Under the pieces are notes generated by a model. That model was not told the DNA's origin. It did no database searches and saw only the letters and a program-made list of their open reading frames with translations. From Cystobacterineae bacterium (lineage in GTDB: Bacteria; Myxococcota; Myxococcia; Myxococcales; Myxococcaceae): a stretch of 64,000 nt of DNA. Where the stretch lies: the NCBI GenBank assembly GCA_009782175.1, contig WRKR01000008.1, positions 1 to 64,000 on the forward strand, in the 5' to 3' direction. Of the stretch, positions 23,232-61,720 are shown in pieces (the first letter of the stretch is position 1; every line of letters begins with the position of its first letter). The position numbers and the translations under genes were made by a program.

Positions 23232-23391
23232 TAGACCGCTTCCACTTTGACATGATCTCTTCGTTGGACTCGTTTTTGTTCGGGTCATGCACTTAAGTGC
23301 ACTCCCCTCACAAAAGCCTCGCCCGCCTCGACCTCATGTCAAATTGAAACCGGTCTGGAGAATCAAATCAGTTCTAAGTAAAACCAGTCTA
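23232..23391. mobile_element. MITE-like element, full 160-bp copy
   Basis: A 160-bp element has a TA at each end and imperfect terminal inverted repeats (AGACCGCTTCCACTT on one end, GACTGGTTTTACTT as the complement of the other). It contains the palindrome TGCACTTAAGTGCA. In reverse orientation it differs from the copy at 50466-50625 at only about six positions by eye, and both are exactly 160 bp. It has no coding capacity. It lies between a small gene and the aminotransferase; the open frame from 23287 runs through it, so that upstream start is not real. Confidence 0.85.
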
Positions 23392-50465: not shown

Positions 50466-50625
50466 TAGGCTGGTTTTACTTAGAACTGATTTGATTATCC
50501 AGACCGGTTTCAATTTGGCATGAGGTCGAGGCGGGCGAGGCTTTTGTGAGAGGAGTGCACTTAAGTGCATGACCCGAACAAAAACGAGCCCAACGAAGAG
50601 ATCATGTCAAAGTGAAAGCGGTCTA
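50466..50625. mobile_element. MITE-like element, full 160-bp copy
   Basis: Begins TAGGCTGGTTTTACTTAGAA and ends AGTGAAAGCGGTCTA; TA at each end. It is the reverse-orientation match to the copy at 23232, with about six differences by eye, and holds the palindrome TGCACTTAAGTGCA. It lies 30 bp beyond the stop of the family A lipoprotein and 65 bp before tRNA-Arg. No coding capacity. Confidence 0.85.
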
Positions 50626-50690
50626 GGGTGTCCTCAAAAGTGCTGACTTTGGGTGGGTATGTTGATGGGTTTTGTTGGAGCATTGCTTTG

Positions 50691-51011: not shown

Positions 51012-51099
51012 TAAACGTTATTCAAACGTGGTTTAAACGTTATTCAAACGTGGTCTAAACGTTATTCAAACGTGTTTTAAACGTTATTCAAACGTTATT
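51012..51099. repeat. Four-unit 22-bp tandem repeat covering an NHL gene's stop codon
   Basis: Four 22-bp units (51012-51033, 51034-51055, 51056-51077, 51078-51099) start TAAACGTTATTCAAACGT with variable last four bases. The stop codon of the NHL gene (51084-51086) is in the last unit; its C-terminal ITFE codons are part of the unit. Confidence 0.94.
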
Positions 51100-52475
51100 T
51101 TGCGGATGCGTTTGTCATAATAGTCCGTCACATAGAGGTTGCCATCCGTGTCTATGGCTATGCTGTGGGGGGAATAAAATTGTGCTTGGCTCCCCAGGCC
51201 GTCGACATAGCCTCCTCCTTCATCGGTTCCGGCAAGGGTGCTGACTTCTCCTGCGGGTGTTATTTTGCGGATGCGGTTGTTGTGGGTATCGGCCACATAG
51301 AGGTTGCCTAAAGCATCTATGGCCAGGCCAAGGGGGTTGTTAAACTCTGCCTCGTTGAGTGGGCCGTCGGCATGGCCTCCTTCAGCTTTTCCGGCCAGGG
51401 TGCTGACTTCTCCCGCGGGTGTTATTTTGCGGATGCGGTGGCTGTCTGTCACATAGAGGTTTCCTGCTGCGTCTATGGCCATAGCGGCAGGCCTATTCAA
51501 CTGTGCAAGGGCTCCTATGCCGTCTGCCTCACCCTGGGTGCCGCTGCCGGCAAAAGTGCTGACTTCTCCTGCGGGTGTTATTTTGCGGATGCGGTGGTTG
51601 CCAAAATCGGCCACATAAAGGTTCCCCGCAGCATCTATTTGCATTCCGAAGGGGTGAGCAAAGCGTGCCTCGCTGCCTATGCCGTCGGCAAAACTTTCAA
51701 GGCCTGAGCTGTCCGCTCCAGCAAAGGTGCTTATTTCTCCGTGAGGGCTTATTTTCCGAATGCGGTGATATAGGTAGTCCGTCACATAAAGGTTGCCTTG
51801 TAGATCGATGGCAATGTCACGAGGCAAGCCCAGCAGCGCAGCGCCGTTGACGAAGGTGCTGCTTTCTCCATCCGGTGAAATTCTCCGAATGCTATAGTCC
51901 AGCGTGTCCGCCACATAAAAATGACCATCCGCACCGATGGCAATGCCGCGAGGCTGAACCCATGAGCTGCTGTTGGAGCCTGGCAAGCCACCCGCAAAAG
52001 TGCTGACAAAAGCCGTAGGCACATAGGTGAAGGCCACCTCAGAAACAGCTGTTTGGCTGCCGGTGGTGACAGAGACGAGGCCGGTGCAGTGTTTGTTTTG
52101 GGGCACTTCAATGGTTATTTCATTCGGCCTGGCAGAGAGGATGTTGGCGGCGACCCCATTCAGCGCGACGCTGTTTTCAGCAAGAACAGCGCTAAAGTTT
52201 TCTCCGCGAAGGGTGAGGGTGGCGCCAAAGGCTGCCTCGCTGGGGCTGAACTCTACAATGCTTGGGGCAATACGTGGGACAGCGTTTGGGGCGGTTTTGT
52301 CGTCGCAAGGGTTGTTGGGGCAAAGCGTCTCTTCGCTGCGGTTAATAGGGTTGCTGCTGTTGTTACTGTCGTTGTTGTCATTGCCGCTGTTGTCATTGTC
52401 GTTGTTTTCACAACTTAAAAGAAGACTCAGCGCGAGGAGGAAGGGCAGTGCTATATAAAGTTTTTTTTTCATCAT
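51084..52475 (-). CDS. NHL-repeat lipoprotein 2 with IPT/TIG domain
   Basis: The 463-residue product has a lipobox in LPFLLALSLLLSCENN, an Asn/Asp-rich linker, one IPT/TIG domain (FSPSEAAFGATLTLRGENF, ITIEVPQNKHCTG), then NHL propeller repeats such as GIAIGADGHFYVADTLD, GNLYVADFGNHRIRKITP and AGEVSTLAGKAEGGHADG. It ends at DYYDKRIRKITFE. The 3' end overlaps a four-unit tandem repeat. DNA repeats are close to those of the genes at 43965 and 53678. Confidence 0.9.
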   Translation of the reverse strand: MMKKKLYIALPFLLALSLLLSCENNDNDNSGNDNNDSNNSSNPINRSEETLCPNNPCDDKTAPNAVPRIAPSIVEFSPSEAAFGATLTLRGENFSAVLAENSVALNGVAANILSARPNEITIEVPQNKHCTGLVSVTTGSQTAVSEVAFTYVPTAFVSTFAGGLPGSNSSSWVQPRGIAIGADGHFYVADTLDYSIRRISPDGESSTFVNGAALLGLPRDIAIDLQGNLYVTDYLYHRIRKISPHGEISTFAGADSSGLESFADGIGSEARFAHPFGMQIDAAGNLYVADFGNHRIRKITPAGEVSTFAGSGTQGEADGIGALAQLNRPAAMAIDAAGNLYVTDSHRIRKITPAGEVSTLAGKAEGGHADGPLNEAEFNNPLGLAIDALGNLYVADTHNNRIRKITPAGEVSTLAGTDEGGGYVDGLGSQAQFYSPHSIAIDTDGNLYVTDYYDKRIRKITFE

Positions 52476-52819
52476 GGTTTTTATGGAGGTGAAGCCCTGG
52501 TTGAGCCTTTGTTGAGAGGCTCATACACATTGCGGATTTGACAGATGGGAGCGAAAGCCATGGCTTGCGCGGGCCATGGAGAAAAAACACCCTAAGCACT
52601 CAATAGTTATTTCCCCCTTTCATGTGTTTTCCCGCTTCGTCGCCCCCCCCTTTTTTATAAAACGCATAGATGCTAAGCCTGCTGACAAAAGGCAACAGGA
52701 ATATATACCCTGCGAAGCCACCGTTGCAAGGGTTCAACATGGTCTAGTGTTTTTTCTTCAGTGCATGCCTTGGGAAAAACCCTACCCATGGGGGTGGGAG
52801 GTTTTTTAGCGGGAGACTT
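52476..52819. other. Gene-free interval
   Basis: A 344-bp stretch between divergent genes. Nothing beyond short ORFs and a C/T-rich tract is seen; it presumably holds the promoters for the NHL gene and trmJ. Confidence 0.5.
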
Positions 52820-53584
52820 GTGGGGCCAAAGCCCGTTAAACTCTGCCTCATGTGGCCTCCTTTGCTCATATGTCATGAGTTGCAATGCGCAGAAAACCTG
52901 GGCGCCATTGCGCGTTTGCTTGGCAATTTTGGTTTTTCGGGTTGTCGCCTTTCCAGGCCTTGGGTGAAGGACTGGGAGAGTGCCTGCCGCGTGGCGGTGG
53001 ATGCTGCGCATTTGTTGGAGGAGTTTGTTGTTATGCCGAGTTTGGAAGAGGCCCTGGAGGATGTGGTTTATGCCGTGGGCACCAGCTTTAGGGCTTGTGC
53101 CCTACGAAGGCATTCCATAACCCCAGAGGAGGGGATAAAGCGTTTATGGGAGAAAAGCACTCAAGGCAAAATAGCCCTGGTATTGGGTGGAGAGCGCCGC
53201 GGACTTTCAGATGAGGAGTTGGCGCTTTGCCATGAGGTTGTCTGCATTCCCACGCCAGGTACAAAGCCCTCGCTGAATTTGGCCCAGGCAGCAGCCATTT
53301 GTTTGTTTTTGTGCGCGCAACAGGGAAAAGCCCCGCAAGAGGCCCCTATAGAGCCACGTGCACCTTTGGGGTTTTTGGAAAGGCTCAAACAGAAAATGCG
53401 CCATGCTTTGCTGAGTGCCGGGTTTTTAAACCCTCAGGCCCCCCATTATGTGTTTGAGGAGTTGTGGCAAAGCCTTGCCCGCGCCAACCTGTCCCAAAGA
53501 GAAGCCGAGTTGTGGCTGAATGCCTTCAAACATGTAGAGCGCCATAGGCTCCATGTGCCTCCCTCAACGCCCTCCATAAAATGA
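52820..53584 (+). CDS. TrmJ-type tRNA/rRNA methyltransferase (SpoU family)
   Basis: SPOUT-fold 2'-O-methyltransferase. The 254-residue product has ENLGAIARLLGNFGFSG, VYAVGTSFRA, and the trefoil-knot signature IALVLGGERRGLSDEE with CIPTPGTKPSLNLAQA, as in TrmJ/SpoU proteins. The C-terminal helical region (LERLKQKMRHALLSAGFLNP) is typical of TrmJ. Start GTG 52820 follows GGGAGA; a later ATG at 52850 is possible. The stop codon overlaps a 15-bp tandem repeat. tRNA position 32 as target is inferred. Confidence 0.85.
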   Translation: MGPKPVKLCLMWPPLLICHELQCAENLGAIARLLGNFGFSGCRLSRPWVKDWESACRVAVDAAHLLEEFVVMPSLEEALEDVVYAVGTSFRACALRRHSITPEEGIKRLWEKSTQGKIALVLGGERRGLSDEELALCHEVVCIPTPGTKPSLNLAQAAAICLFLCAQQGKAPQEAPIEPRAPLGFLERLKQKMRHALLSAGFLNPQAPHYVFEELWQSLARANLSQREAELWLNAFKHVERHRLHVPPSTPSIK

Positions 53585-53635
53585 CATTCTATAAAATGAC
53601 ATTCCATAAAAGGGCATTCTATAAAAGGGCATTAT
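53576..53635. repeat. Four-unit 15-bp tandem repeat covering the trmJ stop codon
   Basis: Four 15-bp units (53576-53590, 53591-53605, 53606-53620, 53621-53635), from ATAAAATGACATTCT to ATAAAAGGGCATTAT. The stop codon TGA (53582-53584) is in unit 1; the last two codons ATA AAA are part of it. Confidence 0.94.
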
Positions 53636-53664
53636 AGAGTGAAACCCATGGGTGGGGTGACACG

Positions 53665-53683
53665 CTCACTCACTCACTCACTC
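53665..53683. repeat. 4-bp tandem repeat covering an NHL gene's stop codon
   Basis: CTCA repeated four times and then CTC. On the minus strand the run is TGAG; the stop TGA (53678-53680) of the NHL gene falls inside it. Confidence 0.9.
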
Positions 53684-55246
53684 TAATAGTATTTTTCGGA
53701 TGATGTGGTTATGAGAATCGGCCACATAAAGGTTGCCTTGTAGATCTATGGCAATGCCCCAAGGCGTATCAAAGCGTACAGGGGGGCCGGGGTGAGGTGC
53801 TCCAGGGCCGTCATCAGAGCCGGCATAGCCATCGCCGGCAAGCGTAATAACCGTCCCTGCCGGTGTGAGCAGGCGTATGCTGTGGTTGGTGCTGTCTGCC
53901 ACATAGAGGTTGCCGTTTGCGTCTATGGCTATTCCGAAAGGCTCGTTAAACTGTGCCTGGCTACCCGTGCCGTCGATAAAGCCTCTCTCAGCACTTCCGG
54001 CAAGCGTGCTGACTTCTCTTTCAGGTGTTATTTTGCGGATGCGGTTGTTGCCGGCATCCACCACATAGAGGTTGCCTTCTGTGTCTACGGCAATGCCCCG
54101 AGGCATATGAAACTGTGCGGCAACCCCCTCCCCGTCGGCAAAGCCTTCTGTGCCGCTGCCGGCAAGTGTGGAAACCACTCCCTCTGGTGTCACCATGCGG
54201 ATGCGGTGGTTGCTCAGATCGGTCACATAGAGCATGCCGTTTGTGTCTATGGTTATTCCGGAAGGCCAGTTAAACCGTGCATTGCTGCCTGTGCCGTCGA
54301 CATGGCCATATTCGCTGCCGGCAAGTGTGGAAACCAATCCCTCTGGCGTCACCCTGCGGATGCGGTGGTTGCCAGAGTCCGTCACATAGAGGTTGCCGTC
54401 CGCGCCTAGGGTGAGATCTCTAGGCCAAGTAAACTGCGCATGGCTGCCCATGCCGTCGGCATGGCCTATTGCGCCGCCGGCAAGGGTGGTGATATTCCCT
54501 TCGGGTGTTATTTTGCGGATGCGGTGGTTCAGCTCCTCCGCCACATAAAGGTTGCCTTGCATGTCTATGGCAATGCCATAAGGTTGGTTAAGCATACCTA
54601 TGCTGCTGCTCAAGGTGCTGACATTGACGCTGGGCATATAGGTGAACGAAGCGGAGGAGGTGCCTGTTTTTTCACCAACCTTCACTCTAACGGGACCTGT
54701 ACACTGCGTGTTTGGGGGAACCATAACACTTATTGTCTGGGTTGTAGCCGACTCCACACGGGCTTCGCATTGGCCCAGGGTGACGGTGTTTTCTGAAGAA
54801 ACAGGGCTGAAGTTTTTTCCTGTAATGTTGAGCAGGGTGCCACTGCGTGCTTGGGTGGGGGAGAAATGGCTGATGCTGGGGGAGATGCCGGGGTGCATGA
54901 CACTCAGCATTCTGTTGAGGTCGCCGGTGGTGACAATGATGATGGCGCGGCGATCTGCGCGGCTGGCATTGGGGGTTACACTCACATTTACGGTTTGGCT
55001 GCCTTGGTAATATGTCGGCGTAATAGAACACCACTCGGTACAGCCTATACAAAAGAGGCTCCACTCCGTGTTAGAGTTAACCCCAAAACTTTCGGTGCCA
55101 GCCTCTTCCGAGCTGAAATGCAAGTTTTGCTGAGAGAGGCTGAGCGTGGGCACATCCACCACCTCTACAGGCCCGCAGCTTGCAAACATGAGAAGCAAAG
55201 CCACCAAAACACAGAAAACAGAAAAAATTTTTTCCCCGGCACCCAT
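53678..55246 (-). CDS. NHL-repeat lipoprotein 3 with BACON and IPT/TIG domains
   Basis: The 522-residue product has signal CVLVALLLMFASCGP, a BACON domain (FSSEEAGTESFGVNSNTEW, ITPTYYQGSQTVNVSVTP, ADRRAIIIVTTGDLNRML), one IPT/TIG domain (FSPTQARSGTLLNITGKNF), and NHL repeats such as YGIAIDMQGNLYVAEELNH and IRKITPEGNITTLAGG. BACON domains are common in carbohydrate-binding surface proteins of Bacteroidetes and rarer here. It lies beside trmJ in the opposite direction. Surface attachment is inferred. Confidence 0.9.
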   Translation of the reverse strand: MGAGEKIFSVFCVLVALLLMFASCGPVEVVDVPTLSLSQQNLHFSSEEAGTESFGVNSNTEWSLFCIGCTEWCSITPTYYQGSQTVNVSVTPNASRADRRAIIIVTTGDLNRMLSVMHPGISPSISHFSPTQARSGTLLNITGKNFSPVSSENTVTLGQCEARVESATTQTISVMVPPNTQCTGPVRVKVGEKTGTSSASFTYMPSVNVSTLSSSIGMLNQPYGIAIDMQGNLYVAEELNHRIRKITPEGNITTLAGGAIGHADGMGSHAQFTWPRDLTLGADGNLYVTDSGNHRIRRVTPEGLVSTLAGSEYGHVDGTGSNARFNWPSGITIDTNGMLYVTDLSNHRIRMVTPEGVVSTLAGSGTEGFADGEGVAAQFHMPRGIAVDTEGNLYVVDAGNNRIRKITPEREVSTLAGSAERGFIDGTGSQAQFNEPFGIAIDANGNLYVADSTNHSIRLLTPAGTVITLAGDGYAGSDDGPGAPHPGPPVRFDTPWGIAIDLQGNLYVADSHNHIIRKILLE

Positions 55247-57159: not shown

Positions 57160-57524
57160 GGGGGCGACAAGGTTTCGACGGGGCCTGAAGGTTTTGGGGA
57201 GCGTGCCGAGTGGGCTTTCACACTCGTCAAATACGGAAGCAAAAACACAAAAGCCAACGACAACGTTGAGCTGGCACTGGCTGCCTAAACAGCGCCTTGC
57301 CCGGACTGCTTGCCTTCGCCTGCGGGCAAGAGAGTCTGCAAACCCAGTGGGCTGGCTTTCGCTGCTGCGCCTGGAGAGCAGCGAGGCGAGATATATTCTG
57401 GGATGGCATGTGGTTGCTGCAGGCTGACTTGCAGCCCATGGGCCACAACCTAAAACGTCAGCTACGCACGTAGCGCCTCAACGCCAACATTCCTCGGACG
57501 CGGGTTCGATTCCCGCCGCCTCCA
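57160..57524 (+). ncRNA. ssrA: tmRNA
   Basis: The 5' end GGGGGCGACAAGGTTTCGACG and the 3' end with CGGGTTCGATTCCCGCCG CCTCCA form the tRNA-like domain (acceptor GGGGGCG with CGCCTCC). The frame ANDNVELALAA then TAA is the proteolysis tag; the resume codon is probably GCC at its start. Between lie pseudoknot-type hairpins. The 3' CCA is not encoded. Together with SmpB it rescues stalled ribosomes. The 3' end is a direct-repeat attachment site. Confidence 0.97.
57504..57521 (+). repeat. Attachment-type direct repeat, left copy in ssrA
   Basis: GTTCGATTCCCGCCGCCT, 18 bp within the ssrA T arm and acceptor, is repeated exactly at 59369-59386. Confidence 0.85.
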
Positions 57525-57739
57525 CTTAGGCCTGAGTTTTGAGCTTTCTCAAAGTTTCATTTGAAGTAGGGTTTCAGTATATTTTTTCTAGCGTTTTCTT
57601 CTTTTGCAGCCGAATGTGTTCCACAAGCGGCCACTCCGCCGTGTTCAACGGCTTGGGCTGCCCGACTCAAAAACAGACCAGGCGCTCCAAAAGCGTGCTA
57701 GACTTAAGCATAGAGAACTATGCTTAACGCGGATTTTCA

Positions 57740-59179
57740 ATGAAACATGTTTCAAATCAACAAGTTGCCGACCATCTTAAGCGCTTGAACCCATGGTGGA
57801 CAGGTGCTGGAGCGGATGAAGAGCTGGCGAAGTTGCGTCCACGCGCCTATTTGGAGCCAGTGCATCAGCTGTTGCTGGAGCCAGGGCTGCGTCGTGCGGT
57901 GGTGTTGTTGGGGCCGCGCCGGGTGGGCAAAACCATTTTGATTCGTCACCTGATTATCCGCCTGCTGGCAGACGGTGTTGCTGCGCAACGTATTGCCTAT
58001 GTGGAGATGGACCACCCATTGCTGCACGGGCAGTCGTTGGAGGCATTGGTTCGGCTGATTGAAGAAATTGCGCCCGAAGGCGAGGGCACGCGCTATCTGT
58101 TTTTCGATGAAATTCAATCTCACAAAGACTGGGAGAAGCACCTAAAACCGCTGGTCGACCACCGGCCTGACTTGCGCATTCTCGTGTCTGGTTCCGCAGC
58201 CGCAGCACTCAAGCGCCAAAGCACAGAGTCTGGCGCGGGACGTTTCACGGATTTTCTGCTGCCCCCGTTGACTTTTTCTGAGTATCTGGACTTGCGCCCT
58301 GAGCCTGCAGCCATTTTCGAGGAAGAGCCCGGCACATATATGCTGGAGGACGTCGAGCGATTGAATGAGCAGTTTGTTGATTATGTCAACTTCGGCGGCT
58401 ATCCAGAGTTGGCGCTGTCGCCCCTGGTGCGCAGCAATCCAGCACGTTTCGTCAAGTCAGACATTGTGGACAAGGTGCTGCTGCGTGACTTGCCGCAATT
58501 GTATGGCATCCAGGATATTCAGGAACTCAATGCTCTGTTCACTCTGCTGGCCTTCAACACGTCAGAGGAAGTTTCTTTTGAGCAACTCTCGCAATGCAGC
58601 GGCGTGAGCAAGCTGACCATTCAGAAATATATTGAATATTTGGAAGCTGCGTTTCTGATTCAACGCGTGTTTAGAATCGACCAGGACGGCAAGCGCTATC
58701 AGCGCTCTCGCAGCTTCAAGGTATATTTAACCAATTCAGCTATGTACACCGGCTTGTTCGGCGTCAGAAAACCGGATGAGCCCGAGTTTGGTCACCTGGT
58801 AGAAACAGCTCTGTTCGCGCAGCGCTTCCATGAGGATGCGCGGCTCAACTATGCGCGTTGGGGTGCAAGCGACTATGAAGTGGATTGGGTAGAATCGTCG
58901 TTGGCACTCAAGCCGGTGGCTGCGTTGGAAATTAAGTGGAGCGACAAAAACCTAGGCAGGGCAGACTCCCTCAAAGGCTTGATAAAGTTTGCGAGCAAAA
59001 ATCGTCTTCCAGTAGTCTGGGCCACCACGCGCAGCCAATTTGGCACAACCACCATTGACGGCAGCAAAATCCGCCAGTGGCCCGCAGCCGTGCTGGCCTT
59101 CAGCTATGGCGTGCGCGCAGTGCGAGGGCGTCTGGCAGGTTATGAAGCGCAAGTCAAAGGTGTTGTTGAAGCAGATTAG
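57740..59179 (+). CDS. AAA ATPase with DUF4143 domain
   Basis: The 479-residue product has an AAA_14 P-loop domain (VVLLGPRRVGKTILIRHLI, Walker A; YLFFDEIQSH, Walker B; ILVSGSAAAAL) and a C-terminal DUF4143 part (FEQLSQCSGVSKLTIQKYIE, EYLEAAFLIQRVF, AALEIKWSDK with a PD-(D/E)XK-like nuclease pattern). Such proteins are widespread in mobile islands; role uncertain. It lies alone inside the segment bounded by the 18-bp repeats at ssrA and 59369, which marks it as inserted DNA. Confidence 0.9.
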   Translation: MKHVSNQQVADHLKRLNPWWTGAGADEELAKLRPRAYLEPVHQLLLEPGLRRAVVLLGPRRVGKTILIRHLIIRLLADGVAAQRIAYVEMDHPLLHGQSLEALVRLIEEIAPEGEGTRYLFFDEIQSHKDWEKHLKPLVDHRPDLRILVSGSAAAALKRQSTESGAGRFTDFLLPPLTFSEYLDLRPEPAAIFEEEPGTYMLEDVERLNEQFVDYVNFGGYPELALSPLVRSNPARFVKSDIVDKVLLRDLPQLYGIQDIQELNALFTLLAFNTSEEVSFEQLSQCSGVSKLTIQKYIEYLEAAFLIQRVFRIDQDGKRYQRSRSFKVYLTNSAMYTGLFGVRKPDEPEFGHLVETALFAQRFHEDARLNYARWGASDYEVDWVESSLALKPVAALEIKWSDKNLGRADSLKGLIKFASKNRLPVVWATTRSQFGTTTIDGSKIRQWPAAVLAFSYGVRAVRGRLAGYEAQVKGVVEAD

Positions 59180-59368
59180 GGGCAAGAGCCATCTTCTCCC
59201 CAAAAGTCCGCAGGGGTGACACAGTGTTGGAGGCCAAGAGCGTGTGTCGTGTTGTTCTACTTTGTGAAAAGAGCCGGGTTCCATTTTTGAAAACAAGTGC
59301 TGCTAAGCCCATAGGTAACCAAAGTTCGGCTCTAAAAAAATGCTGCCATATAAAAGCTTTGCTCCCCA

Positions 59369-59386
59369 GTTCGATTCCCGCCGCCT
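59369..59386 (+). repeat. Attachment-type direct repeat, right copy
   Basis: Exact 18-bp copy of the ssrA 3'-end segment at 57504-57521, in direct orientation, after the ATPase gene. The bases either side do not pair as a tRNA-like domain, so it is not a second tmRNA. Confidence 0.85.
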
Positions 59387-59550: not shown

Positions 59551-59637
59551 ATGTCTCATCGGTGAGACAAAAATCCAGTCTTGTCTCATTTTTAACGTTT
59601 TTCGAGACAAGATTGGCTTTTTATCTCACGAGTGAGA
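59551..59637. repeat. Cluster of GTCTCA/TGAGAC inverted repeats
   Basis: GTCTCATCGGTGAGAC (59551-59566), a CTTGTCTC...GAGACAAG hairpin (59580-59611), and CTCACGAGTGAG at the end of the fic gene share a GTCTC/TGAGA theme. They lie between the convergent ATPase and fic genes. They may be terminators or protein-binding sites. Confidence 0.6.
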
Positions 59638-60757
59638 GATTTTCTGTGCCTTCAGCCGCACACAGCAACGCGTCAAAAGCATAAATGCCGACACGCCCGC
59701 CTCGGCCTTCTTGCAAAATTGACAAAATACCTTCTTTTCTCAACAGCTTGAGAAAACGCGCTGCACTGGGTTTGGGGATGCCCGAGCGACCATAGAAGGC
59801 AGGCGCAGCAAAAATCGGCGATTGGAACAAAAAATCCACAATGCGCATGGCATGCTGGGAATGTGTCAGCTCAGTCACTCGAAGCTTGAGCCTGTCATGC
59901 AACGCCAAAATGGCATGTGCTCTGCGCTCGTTTTCGCCAGCCTGTTCTTGGATGGCCTTCAAGAAAAACATACACCACTCTGTCCATGCCCCATCGCGTG
60001 ACACCGCCCGCAAGCGCTCCTGGTATTCCTGTCGGTTTTGTTCCAAATAGCCGCTGATATAGAAATCCGGACTGCTCAGGAAACGTCGCTCGTGGAGAAA
60101 AAGTGGAATCAGCATGCGGCCCAACCTGCCGTTGCCATCCATGAAAGGGTGGAGCGCCTCGAATTCGAGATGCACGAGAGCCAATTGCACCAACATGTCT
60201 GGCTCATGAGTGCTTTTGAAATAGCGCTCCCACGCATCCATGCCCGCGCACAGGTGCTCAGGCGCGATGGGAACAAAGCTTGCCGTTTCGGGTGTGCAAC
60301 CTGCCGGGCCAATATAGTTTTGCCCAGAGCGATAGCTACCAGGCATTTTGTCGCGGCCACGCACGCCTCGCATGAGTATTTGGTGCGCGCCACGCAAAAC
60401 CTGCTGCGAGAACGGGCGGTGCTTCATCTCATCCACACAGGCGCTCATGGCGTGTCGATAGTTGAGCACTTCCTTTGCATCGTCACGCTTGGATTGAGTC
60501 AAGGCTTCCGAAATGCTGCCTGCTTCAACCTCAAGCACTTCGCTGATGGTCACCTGCGTGCCCTCAATTTTCGAGGACAGCACGGCCTCTTGTGTGGCCA
60601 GCGGCGTACGCAAAATGTGTGCGTTCGGAATGGCAGAGAGCAACCCATCATAGCGAGCCAACCTCGCGCTGGCCGGGCCAATCAACGGAATCAGCCGAGC
60701 CCAGTCCAGAGCCGCAGGTGGAAATTTGTCGAGGTGATAATGCACAGGTGCTGACAT
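59621..60757 (-). CDS. Fic-domain protein (predicted AMPylase)
   Basis: From ATG 60757 the product is 378 residues. It has an N-terminal inhibitory helix SSKIEGTQVTISEV (motif S-x-x-x-E-G, class II Fic), the Fic core HPFMDGNGRLGR, and a C-terminal winged-helix-like part (SGIPKPSAARFLKLLRKEG). Fic enzymes transfer AMP to protein hydroxyls; the inhibitory Glu keeps them silent. The architecture with a C-terminal HTH is common in accessory Fic proteins. The preceding MITE lies upstream at 60962. Confidence 0.92.
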   Translation of the reverse strand: MSAPVHYHLDKFPPAALDWARLIPLIGPASARLARYDGLLSAIPNAHILRTPLATQEAVLSSKIEGTQVTISEVLEVEAGSISEALTQSKRDDAKEVLNYRHAMSACVDEMKHRPFSQQVLRGAHQILMRGVRGRDKMPGSYRSGQNYIGPAGCTPETASFVPIAPEHLCAGMDAWERYFKSTHEPDMLVQLALVHLEFEALHPFMDGNGRLGRMLIPLFLHERRFLSSPDFYISGYLEQNRQEYQERLRAVSRDGAWTEWCMFFLKAIQEQAGENERRAHAILALHDRLKLRVTELTHSQHAMRIVDFLFQSPIFAAPAFYGRSGIPKPSAARFLKLLRKEGILSILQEGRGGRVGIYAFDALLCAAEGTENLSLVR

Positions 60758-60961
60758 TGAGTGCACTCTAATTGCACCGCGCGAACAACGCCACATGCAA
60801 CAACTTCCATAGGCTCTTTGGGTATTTTGTCAGGCCCGCTTTTTCACTTGGAAGGGGAGGTTTTTGTCTGCCGGGTACAGATTTTTGAGTGGTTTTTTAA
60901 CATTTCAAAAGGGGTGTTAGACCTTCTCATGGCTATTCACTCCAAGGGGAAATGTGCCAAT

Positions 60962-61300
60962 TAGTCCGTTTTTACTTAGAACTGATTTGATTTTACAGAC
61001 CGGTTTCAATTGAGGCGAGCTAAAGCTCGCCTGCACTACGCTCCATGAATGAAGAAAAAGCATGCTTTTTCTTCATTCCCTCCGCTCCGCTTGGGCATGA
61101 GGTCGAGGCGGGCGAGGCCCCAATTCCGAGGGGAAGGCGCGAGGGGAGTGCACTTAAGTGCATTCCTTAAGCGAAACCGGAGCCCTAACGGAGCGGAGGG
61201 AATCATTTGAGAAAGCATGCTTTCTCAAATAATTCCCGGAGCGGAGTAGACGAGCGAAGCGAGTCTCACGAAGAGATCATGTCAAAGTGGAAGCGGTCTA
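60962..61300. mobile_element. MITE-like element, expanded 339-bp copy
   Basis: Same TA-flanked ends as the 160-bp copies (TAGTCCGTTTTTACTTAG and AGTGGAAGCGGTCTA) with extra palindromic modules inside. A 32-bp perfect palindrome spans 61047-61078 and a 26-bp one spans 61205-61230, both centred on GCATGC. The right end provides the stop codon of the zinc-protein gene (CTA 61298-61300). Confidence 0.85.
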
Positions 61301-61720
61301 GTCGTCGAGTGCTGGGTGCCAGTGAAAGTCAACGCTCTTGCCATGCCCACGGGGGCATGTCCAAAACCCAGTGGCGGAAACCGACCCATGCTTAGGACAA
61401 TAGAAGCAGCCACAGCCAGCACAGAATCCCGCACCGTCATAGAACCCGGCGGCTCGAATCGCCTCCGCGCTGGGTGCGTTGGAGAACGCTGCCACTATCC
61501 GCTCGGCCCGCTCCAGGTCGATCGCGTCACCCACCCAACCATTGCTGCCGCCCGGCCCGTCATAGAGGAGCTGGTAGCATTCCGATATACGGTATTTGGC
61601 GAACGCCTGCCGCTGGTCCTTCTCCCAGAACGCCCACTCCGTTGGCAACGCATGCGGTGGGATGACTTCAATGGTCGCTGAGGGTTGCTCGCAGATTTTG
61701 CATTTGGGCCTGAACAGCAT
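61298..61720 (-). CDS. Cys/His-rich (zinc-binding) protein of unknown function
   Basis: From ATG 61720 the product is 140 residues: CKICEQPS near the start, then CAGCGCFYCPKHG, and CPRGHGKSV, a pattern of Cys pairs and His that suggests zinc binding. The stop codon TAG is formed from the terminal TA of the MITE plus a G from the element, so the original C-terminus was probably different or longer. Upstream lie paired operator-like sites at 61812 and 61855. Function unknown. Confidence 0.65.
   Translation of the reverse strand: MLFRPKCKICEQPSATIEVIPPHALPTEWAFWEKDQRQAFAKYRISECYQLLYDGPGGSNGWVGDAIDLERAERIVAAFSNAPSAEAIRAAGFYDGAGFCAGCGCFYCPKHGSVSATGFWTCPRGHGKSVDFHWHPALDD

Follow-up and report, generated by a model that had tools for sequence, protein, structure and literature searches.

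We analysed a window of 64,000 nucleotides from the genome of a Cystobacterineae bacterium (Myxococcaceae; positions 1 to 64,000 of contig WRKR01000008.1), in which the tmRNA gene is followed by one long gene and then by a second copy of part of its own 3' region. The features of this locus are the following:

57160–57525, forward strand: intact ssrA, the tmRNA gene (ARAGORN; Rfam RF00023, 163.6 bits).
57504–57521, forward strand: proximal attachment repeat GTTCGATTCCCGCCGCCT, within ssrA, running from the T-loop to acceptor nucleotide 70.
57522–59386, forward strand: probable remnant of an island, with a repeat-to-repeat unit of 1865 bp, a foreign cargo gene and no integrase.
57704–57727, no strand assigned: inverted repeat TTAAGCATAG-AGAA-CTATGCTTAA, immediately before the ATPase gene.
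57740–59179, forward strand: gene for an AAA_14 plus DUF4143 ATPase of 479 amino acids (PADLOC PDC-S01, a candidate defence family); no other cargo gene is present.
59369–59386, forward strand: distal attachment repeat, best read as a displaced, 'damaged' ssrA fragment without the last three nucleotides of the gene.

The tag peptide of ssrA is read by ARAGORN as ANDNVELALAA*; the discriminator A is at position 57524 and CCA is not encoded. The two exact copies of GTTCGATTCCCGCCGCCT have the same orientation, with 1865 bp between their starts, and no further exact copy is present in the 2.70-Mb genome than these at 57504 and 59369. Genome-wide, near matches occur only in tRNA-Ala and tRNA-Thr genes, with 1 and 2 mismatches. 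These are genuine tRNA genes, and tRNA genes were rejected as the source of the repeat. No larger tmRNA pseudogene was detected at 59369 with ARAGORN or Rfam. Within the 64-kb window, the remaining exact 18-mer direct repeats that lie at most 2.5 kb apart all fall in a small number of stretches that are dense in repeats and lie away from ssrA. In shuffled windows, about 0.07 matches to GTTCGATTCCCGCCGCCT are expected even when up to three mismatches are allowed, and with only two copies in 2.7 Mb the probability that the repeat arose by chance is practically nil. The first-pass annotation had described an exact duplication, at 59369, of the 18-bp 3' end of tmRNA. The exact repeat stands, but it does not amount to the complete 3' end: the distal copy continues from CCT into ATTTTTT where ssrA continues into its final CCA, and thus lacks C71, C72 and A73, i.e. 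two acceptor bases and the discriminator.

Between the two repeat copies lies a single long ORF, that of the 479-residue AAA_14/DUF4143 protein, and neither an integrase nor an integrase remnant was found within 57522–59386. The earlier description of the segment as carrying the DUF4143 ATPase alone, with no integrase inside, was thus borne out by the ORF list and the integrase search. In GC content the segment (0.525) equals the window (0.528), so that composition lends no support to an island reading. A tRNA-type terminator follows ssrA in the two congeners compared, G001 and G002, and is absent after ssrA here. Its absence is consistent with a replaced flank. A search for the native ssrA terminator beyond the distal copy did not find it.

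The form of the distal copy can be compared with that of island ends elsewhere in the genus. In this same genome, an integrase gene lies directly behind tRNA-Leu(cag) on contig C19, with the tDNA fragment TTCGAGTCCTCTCCTG 9.8 kb downstream, and another lies directly behind tRNA-Lys(ttt) on contig C28, with the fragment GTTCGAGTCCCTCTCGA 7.4 kb downstream. When these two loci are compared with relatives, synteny extends on the left as far as the tRNA end, but the right flanks differ. In the congener G002, a fragment of ssrA itself, GTTCGATTCCCGCCGCC, is found 1.05 kb downstream of the gene. All four fragments (ssrA here, ssrA of G002, tRNA-Leu and tRNA-Lys) begin in or adjoining the T-loop. The break point is exactly 3 nucleotides before the discriminator in the tRNA-Leu, tRNA-Lys and G002 fragments, and one base later in the ssrA distal copy here, where the extra matching base (T, nucleotide 70) may be a chance match of a single base. 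Related integrases of other genera have left fragments that reach the gene end, as at tRNA-Thr in G189 and tRNA-Asn in G169. Loss of the last bases of such fragments was reportedly first described by Williams in 2003. In the Islander catalogue a tDNA fragment that ends about 3 bp before the discriminator is classed as 'damaged' (PMC4383910). Because its break point matches the damaged form of the three sister ends, the distal copy is best read, from the sequences compared, as a damaged tDNA fragment and the mark of an integrase-made insertion rather than a chance match.

A local duplication or a gene-conversion event, with no site-specific recombination, could also have placed an 18-bp copy here. 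Such an origin would fit with the lack of a syntenic empty site among relatives, and with the DNA after the distal copy, which is unlike a displaced ssrA terminator. The matching fragments elsewhere in the genus already make it unlikely: the break points of the three other tDNA island ends nearly coincide with the one here, and the ssrA locus of G002 has both a fragment copy and the start of an integrase gene. We therefore regard it as very improbable.

The recombinases encoded in this genome are two XerC/D-like proteins (named from length and similarity alone), the tRNA-Leu and tRNA-Lys integrases, and a broken integrase at tRNA-Glu (contig C24). The tRNA-Leu and tRNA-Lys integrases both have the domains Arm-DNA-bind_3, Phage_int_M and Phage_integrase. 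An integrase with ssrA specificity, which the first-pass annotation had proposed to look for elsewhere, was not found in this genome, and none sits at ssrA. The congener G002 is informative in this respect. Behind its ssrA come the terminator, the motif CATACCAACGTTTTGTTGG, GATACCA and then ATGAAACTCACAGACA, an arrangement that matches the tRNA-Leu integrase gene in its leader and start, and the match to that gene stops at once after ATGAAACTCACAGACA, covering the first codons only. Because the leader and a cut-off integrase start remain, it can be said that an island of the Arm-DNA-bind_3 integrase clade entered ssrA in the genus and has decayed at that site. In G023, a more distant member of the family, an integrase of the Arm-DNA-bind_3 architecture is present directly behind ssrA. 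It is thus the sister loci that suggest which type of integrase acted at ssrA here. In the congener G001, no fragment was found behind ssrA within the contig, and the gene is followed by a small protein gene and then by core genes such as one that we take, from reading the sequences, to be typA. In a search for an empty site, the ssrA flanks were compared with those of G001 and G002. The neighbours differ on both sides, and since the flanks are not syntenic, the insertion cannot be read off by comparison.

Taken together, we consider it highly probable that a tyrosine integrase had placed a genomic island at ssrA and that the segment is its relic, decayed until one intact cargo gene was left. 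The proposal of tyrosine-recombinase integration at ssrA made in the first-pass annotation is well supported by the fragment form shared with three island ends, by the Arm-DNA-bind_3 integrases beside the tRNA ones and by the truncated integrase start at ssrA of G002. Its suggestion of a decayed island is likewise supported, by the absence of an integrase from the segment and from ssrA in this genome and by the damaged distal end. We infer the original integration event and the order of losses as follows. A tyrosine integrase that was probably of the Arm-DNA-bind_3/DUF4102 type would have inserted an island into the T-loop/acceptor region of ssrA, with the island end supplying a new tmRNA 3' end and terminator. 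The original 3' fragment of ssrA would thereby have been displaced to the far side (59369–59386), where its last bases would subsequently have been lost, a form of damage that is known. Deletions would have removed the integrase and nearly all other island content, leaving the ATPase gene with its own operator, from the proteobacterial gene pool.

The ATPase scores above cut-off for both AAA_14 (111.9 bits) and DUF4143 (74.8 bits) and matches PADLOC family PDC-S01 (PDLC04787) over its full length (E 1.5e-56). It shares 75–84% amino acid identity with proteins of Thermomonas, Rhodanobacter, Mariprofundus and many others, mostly gamma- and betaproteobacterial. In comparisons with the well-aligned homologues (L110, L108, L113, L111 and L136), dS is much greater than dN; homologue L109 was left out, its codon alignment being out of register. 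Judged by its sequence, the cargo gene is intact and came by horizontal transfer from a proteobacterial gene pool. A phage or plasmid origin was considered and rejected: identity is only 22–28% in the phage records listed, no plasmid DNA matched and no close relative was found in viral contigs. The inverted repeat TTAAGCATAG-AGAA-CTATGCTTAA is kept upstream of the 75–84% identical homologues across phyla (loci L108–L136), and probably constitutes the operator/promoter of the gene. Since it precedes the gene both here and in the homologues, promoter and gene travel together.

The homologues also give an indication of function, since they are often located within type I restriction operons. An hsdS gene lies upstream of the ATPase homologue at three loci (L112, L115, L124), an HsdR-type gene downstream at four (L113, L115, L118, L126) and HsdM downstream at two (L108, L124). 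A role of the ATPase in defence or in the control of restriction is likely, the defence role being inferred. Among 60 homologue loci scanned, tRNA genes are rare and tmRNA is absent, and in a comparison of 80 loci no common direct repeat flanks the homologues. Because these homologues have no bounding tDNA repeats, the ATPase gene may have joined as cargo of the island or have arrived later. In the latter case a normal island would have received the gene independently, as a single-gene module of the sort often seen beside restriction genes in proteobacteria, and this would be compatible with the decayed-island reading. The conservation of promoter plus gene across phyla, at many unrelated places and without tDNA or flanking repeats, speaks for such a module; however, it requires a second event, and no separate insertion boundary is visible inside the segment. 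We retain the later entry of the ATPase gene as a tentative possibility.

It was also asked in the first-pass annotation whether the segment could be a minimal satellite mobilised in trans. Such a single-gene unit between ssrA-type sites would be moved by an integrase encoded elsewhere and would be mobile still. That one intact gene is flanked by two near-perfect sites would agree with this, as would a second integrase-less ssrA unit, with other content and 1.05 kb long, in the congener G002, and short units (1.5–5 kb) that lie between copies of the ssrA end in relatives with large genomes, e.g. G016. However, the recombinase set of this genome is limited to the XerC/D-like, tRNA-Leu and tRNA-Lys enzymes and the broken tRNA-Glu one, the segment has no satellite genes, and the DUF4143 homologues of other taxa do not occur in such units, being unbounded by tDNA repeats. 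Viral contigs, phages and plasmids hold no close relative, and the truncated integrase start in G002 points to decay. Moreover, the distal site is damaged, so that excision would break ssrA. The computed excision joint (57521/59387) reads ...CGCCTATT, compared with the native ...CGCCTCCA. In a shortened model comprising the acceptor and T-arm, the native end forms the full acceptor stem, at -21.8 kcal/mol, and the excision product takes up a different fold, at -17.1 kcal/mol. According to this model, excision would probably harm ssrA, by depriving tmRNA of its last acceptor bases and breaking the acceptor stem. A satellite that is still mobile is thus not supported, and we hold it to be unlikely. 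As no integrase sits at ssrA in this genome and excision would spoil the acceptor end of tmRNA, the segment is most likely immobile and fixed.

As a relic of an island, the segment can be set beside several known systems. Islander reports tmRNA as the most enriched target in its catalogue and sets length limits of 2–200 kb for tDNA islands (PMC4383910). Like these islands, the locus has an intact tDNA with a 3' fragment downstream in the same orientation, and like their damaged-fragment class this fragment stops about 3 bp before the discriminator. Unlike them, the segment has no integrase and, at 1865 bp, is under the 2-kb limit, as a relic and not an active island. It shares its fragment form with the tRNA-Leu and tRNA-Lys islands of the same genome, which differ in having kept an intact integrase and in being 9.8 and 7.4 kb long. 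With the proteobacterial PDC-S01/AAA_14-DUF4143 ATPases there is a full-length match and a shared upstream inverted repeat, but several of those adjoin type I restriction genes, whereas the gene here is alone at ssrA and hsd genes are absent from the segment. Phage satellites of the PICI type are similarly small, have attachment sites at their ends and have no self-transfer genes, but here there is a single long ORF and no integrase, regulator or packaging gene.

The ssrA segment probably represents an end stage of island decay, in which an attachment scar and one cargo gene are left, in a host genus whose genomes (2.1–2.7 Mb) are far smaller than those of the rest of the family. All four island ends with a fragment in the genus are damaged, and excision would also damage ssrA; for these reasons damaged fragments may help islands to persist, as far as four cases can indicate. 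Through its cargo, a candidate defence ATPase is connected with tDNA islands as well as with type I restriction genes. As a kind, a decayed island at a tmRNA gene with a damaged fragment is ordinary; the present one, with a single horizontally acquired candidate defence gene, is a well-supported example of a locked relic.

More striking than the segment itself are the scattered tmRNA ends of large-genome relatives. The 24-mer GGGTTCGATTCCCGCCGCCTCCAC from the tmRNA 3' end is found in up to 14 copies per genome (14 in G009, 14 in G029 and 12 in G104), and its reversed control gave zero matches. A 17-mer of the tmRNA end occurs 19 times in G009, 25 times in G016 and 11 times in G030. Such ends, of 17–26 bp, are present genome-wide and on both strands in G009, G016, G029, G030, G104 and other large-genome relatives (loci L044–L057 and L090–L107). 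None of the 15 copies away from ssrA in the first scan is a tRNA or tmRNA gene. Tyrosine integrases are located right behind some of the scattered ends (L096, L099, L102 and L104; also in G104, G106 and G130), and SitA5-family polymorphic toxin genes follow at least three (L094, L096 and L106). It has been reported that sitA genes are associated with mobile elements (PMC5562445); that paper does not mention tmRNA, and no paper linking ssrA with sitA in myxobacteria was found in the literature searched. The SitA5 matches and the genome sizes point to Myxococcaceae as the probable family of these genomes. In G047 (contig C82, 13366–20491; L058), a tandem array lies behind ssrA, with further full copies of the tmRNA end about 1.0 and 7.1 kb downstream, and its first unit has no obvious integrase. 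Across the family, small single-gene units, such as kin-discrimination toxins and defence ATPases, could use copies of the tmRNA 3' end as portable landing sites, with a few ssrA-type integrases moving these units in trans. The unit described here would then be one such cassette, locked by its damaged end. We give this idea only a slender chance.

Several further features are found elsewhere in the window. Just right of the distal copy, positions 59624–60796 of the reverse strand encode a Fic_N/Fic protein (PADLOC SoFic, E 5.8e-102), whose homologue in G001 is located elsewhere, behind a tRNA-Leu gene. A repeat of about 45–55 bp is present at 61257–61301, 50573–50627 and 23232–23284. All three copies match one repeat of G001, and the copy at 61257 has matches at many sites in both congeners, G001 and G002. 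Finally, the region 51084–55246 contains two paralogous lipoprotein-like genes with internal repeats, and related DNA is found at many sites in congeners, which suggests an expanded family.
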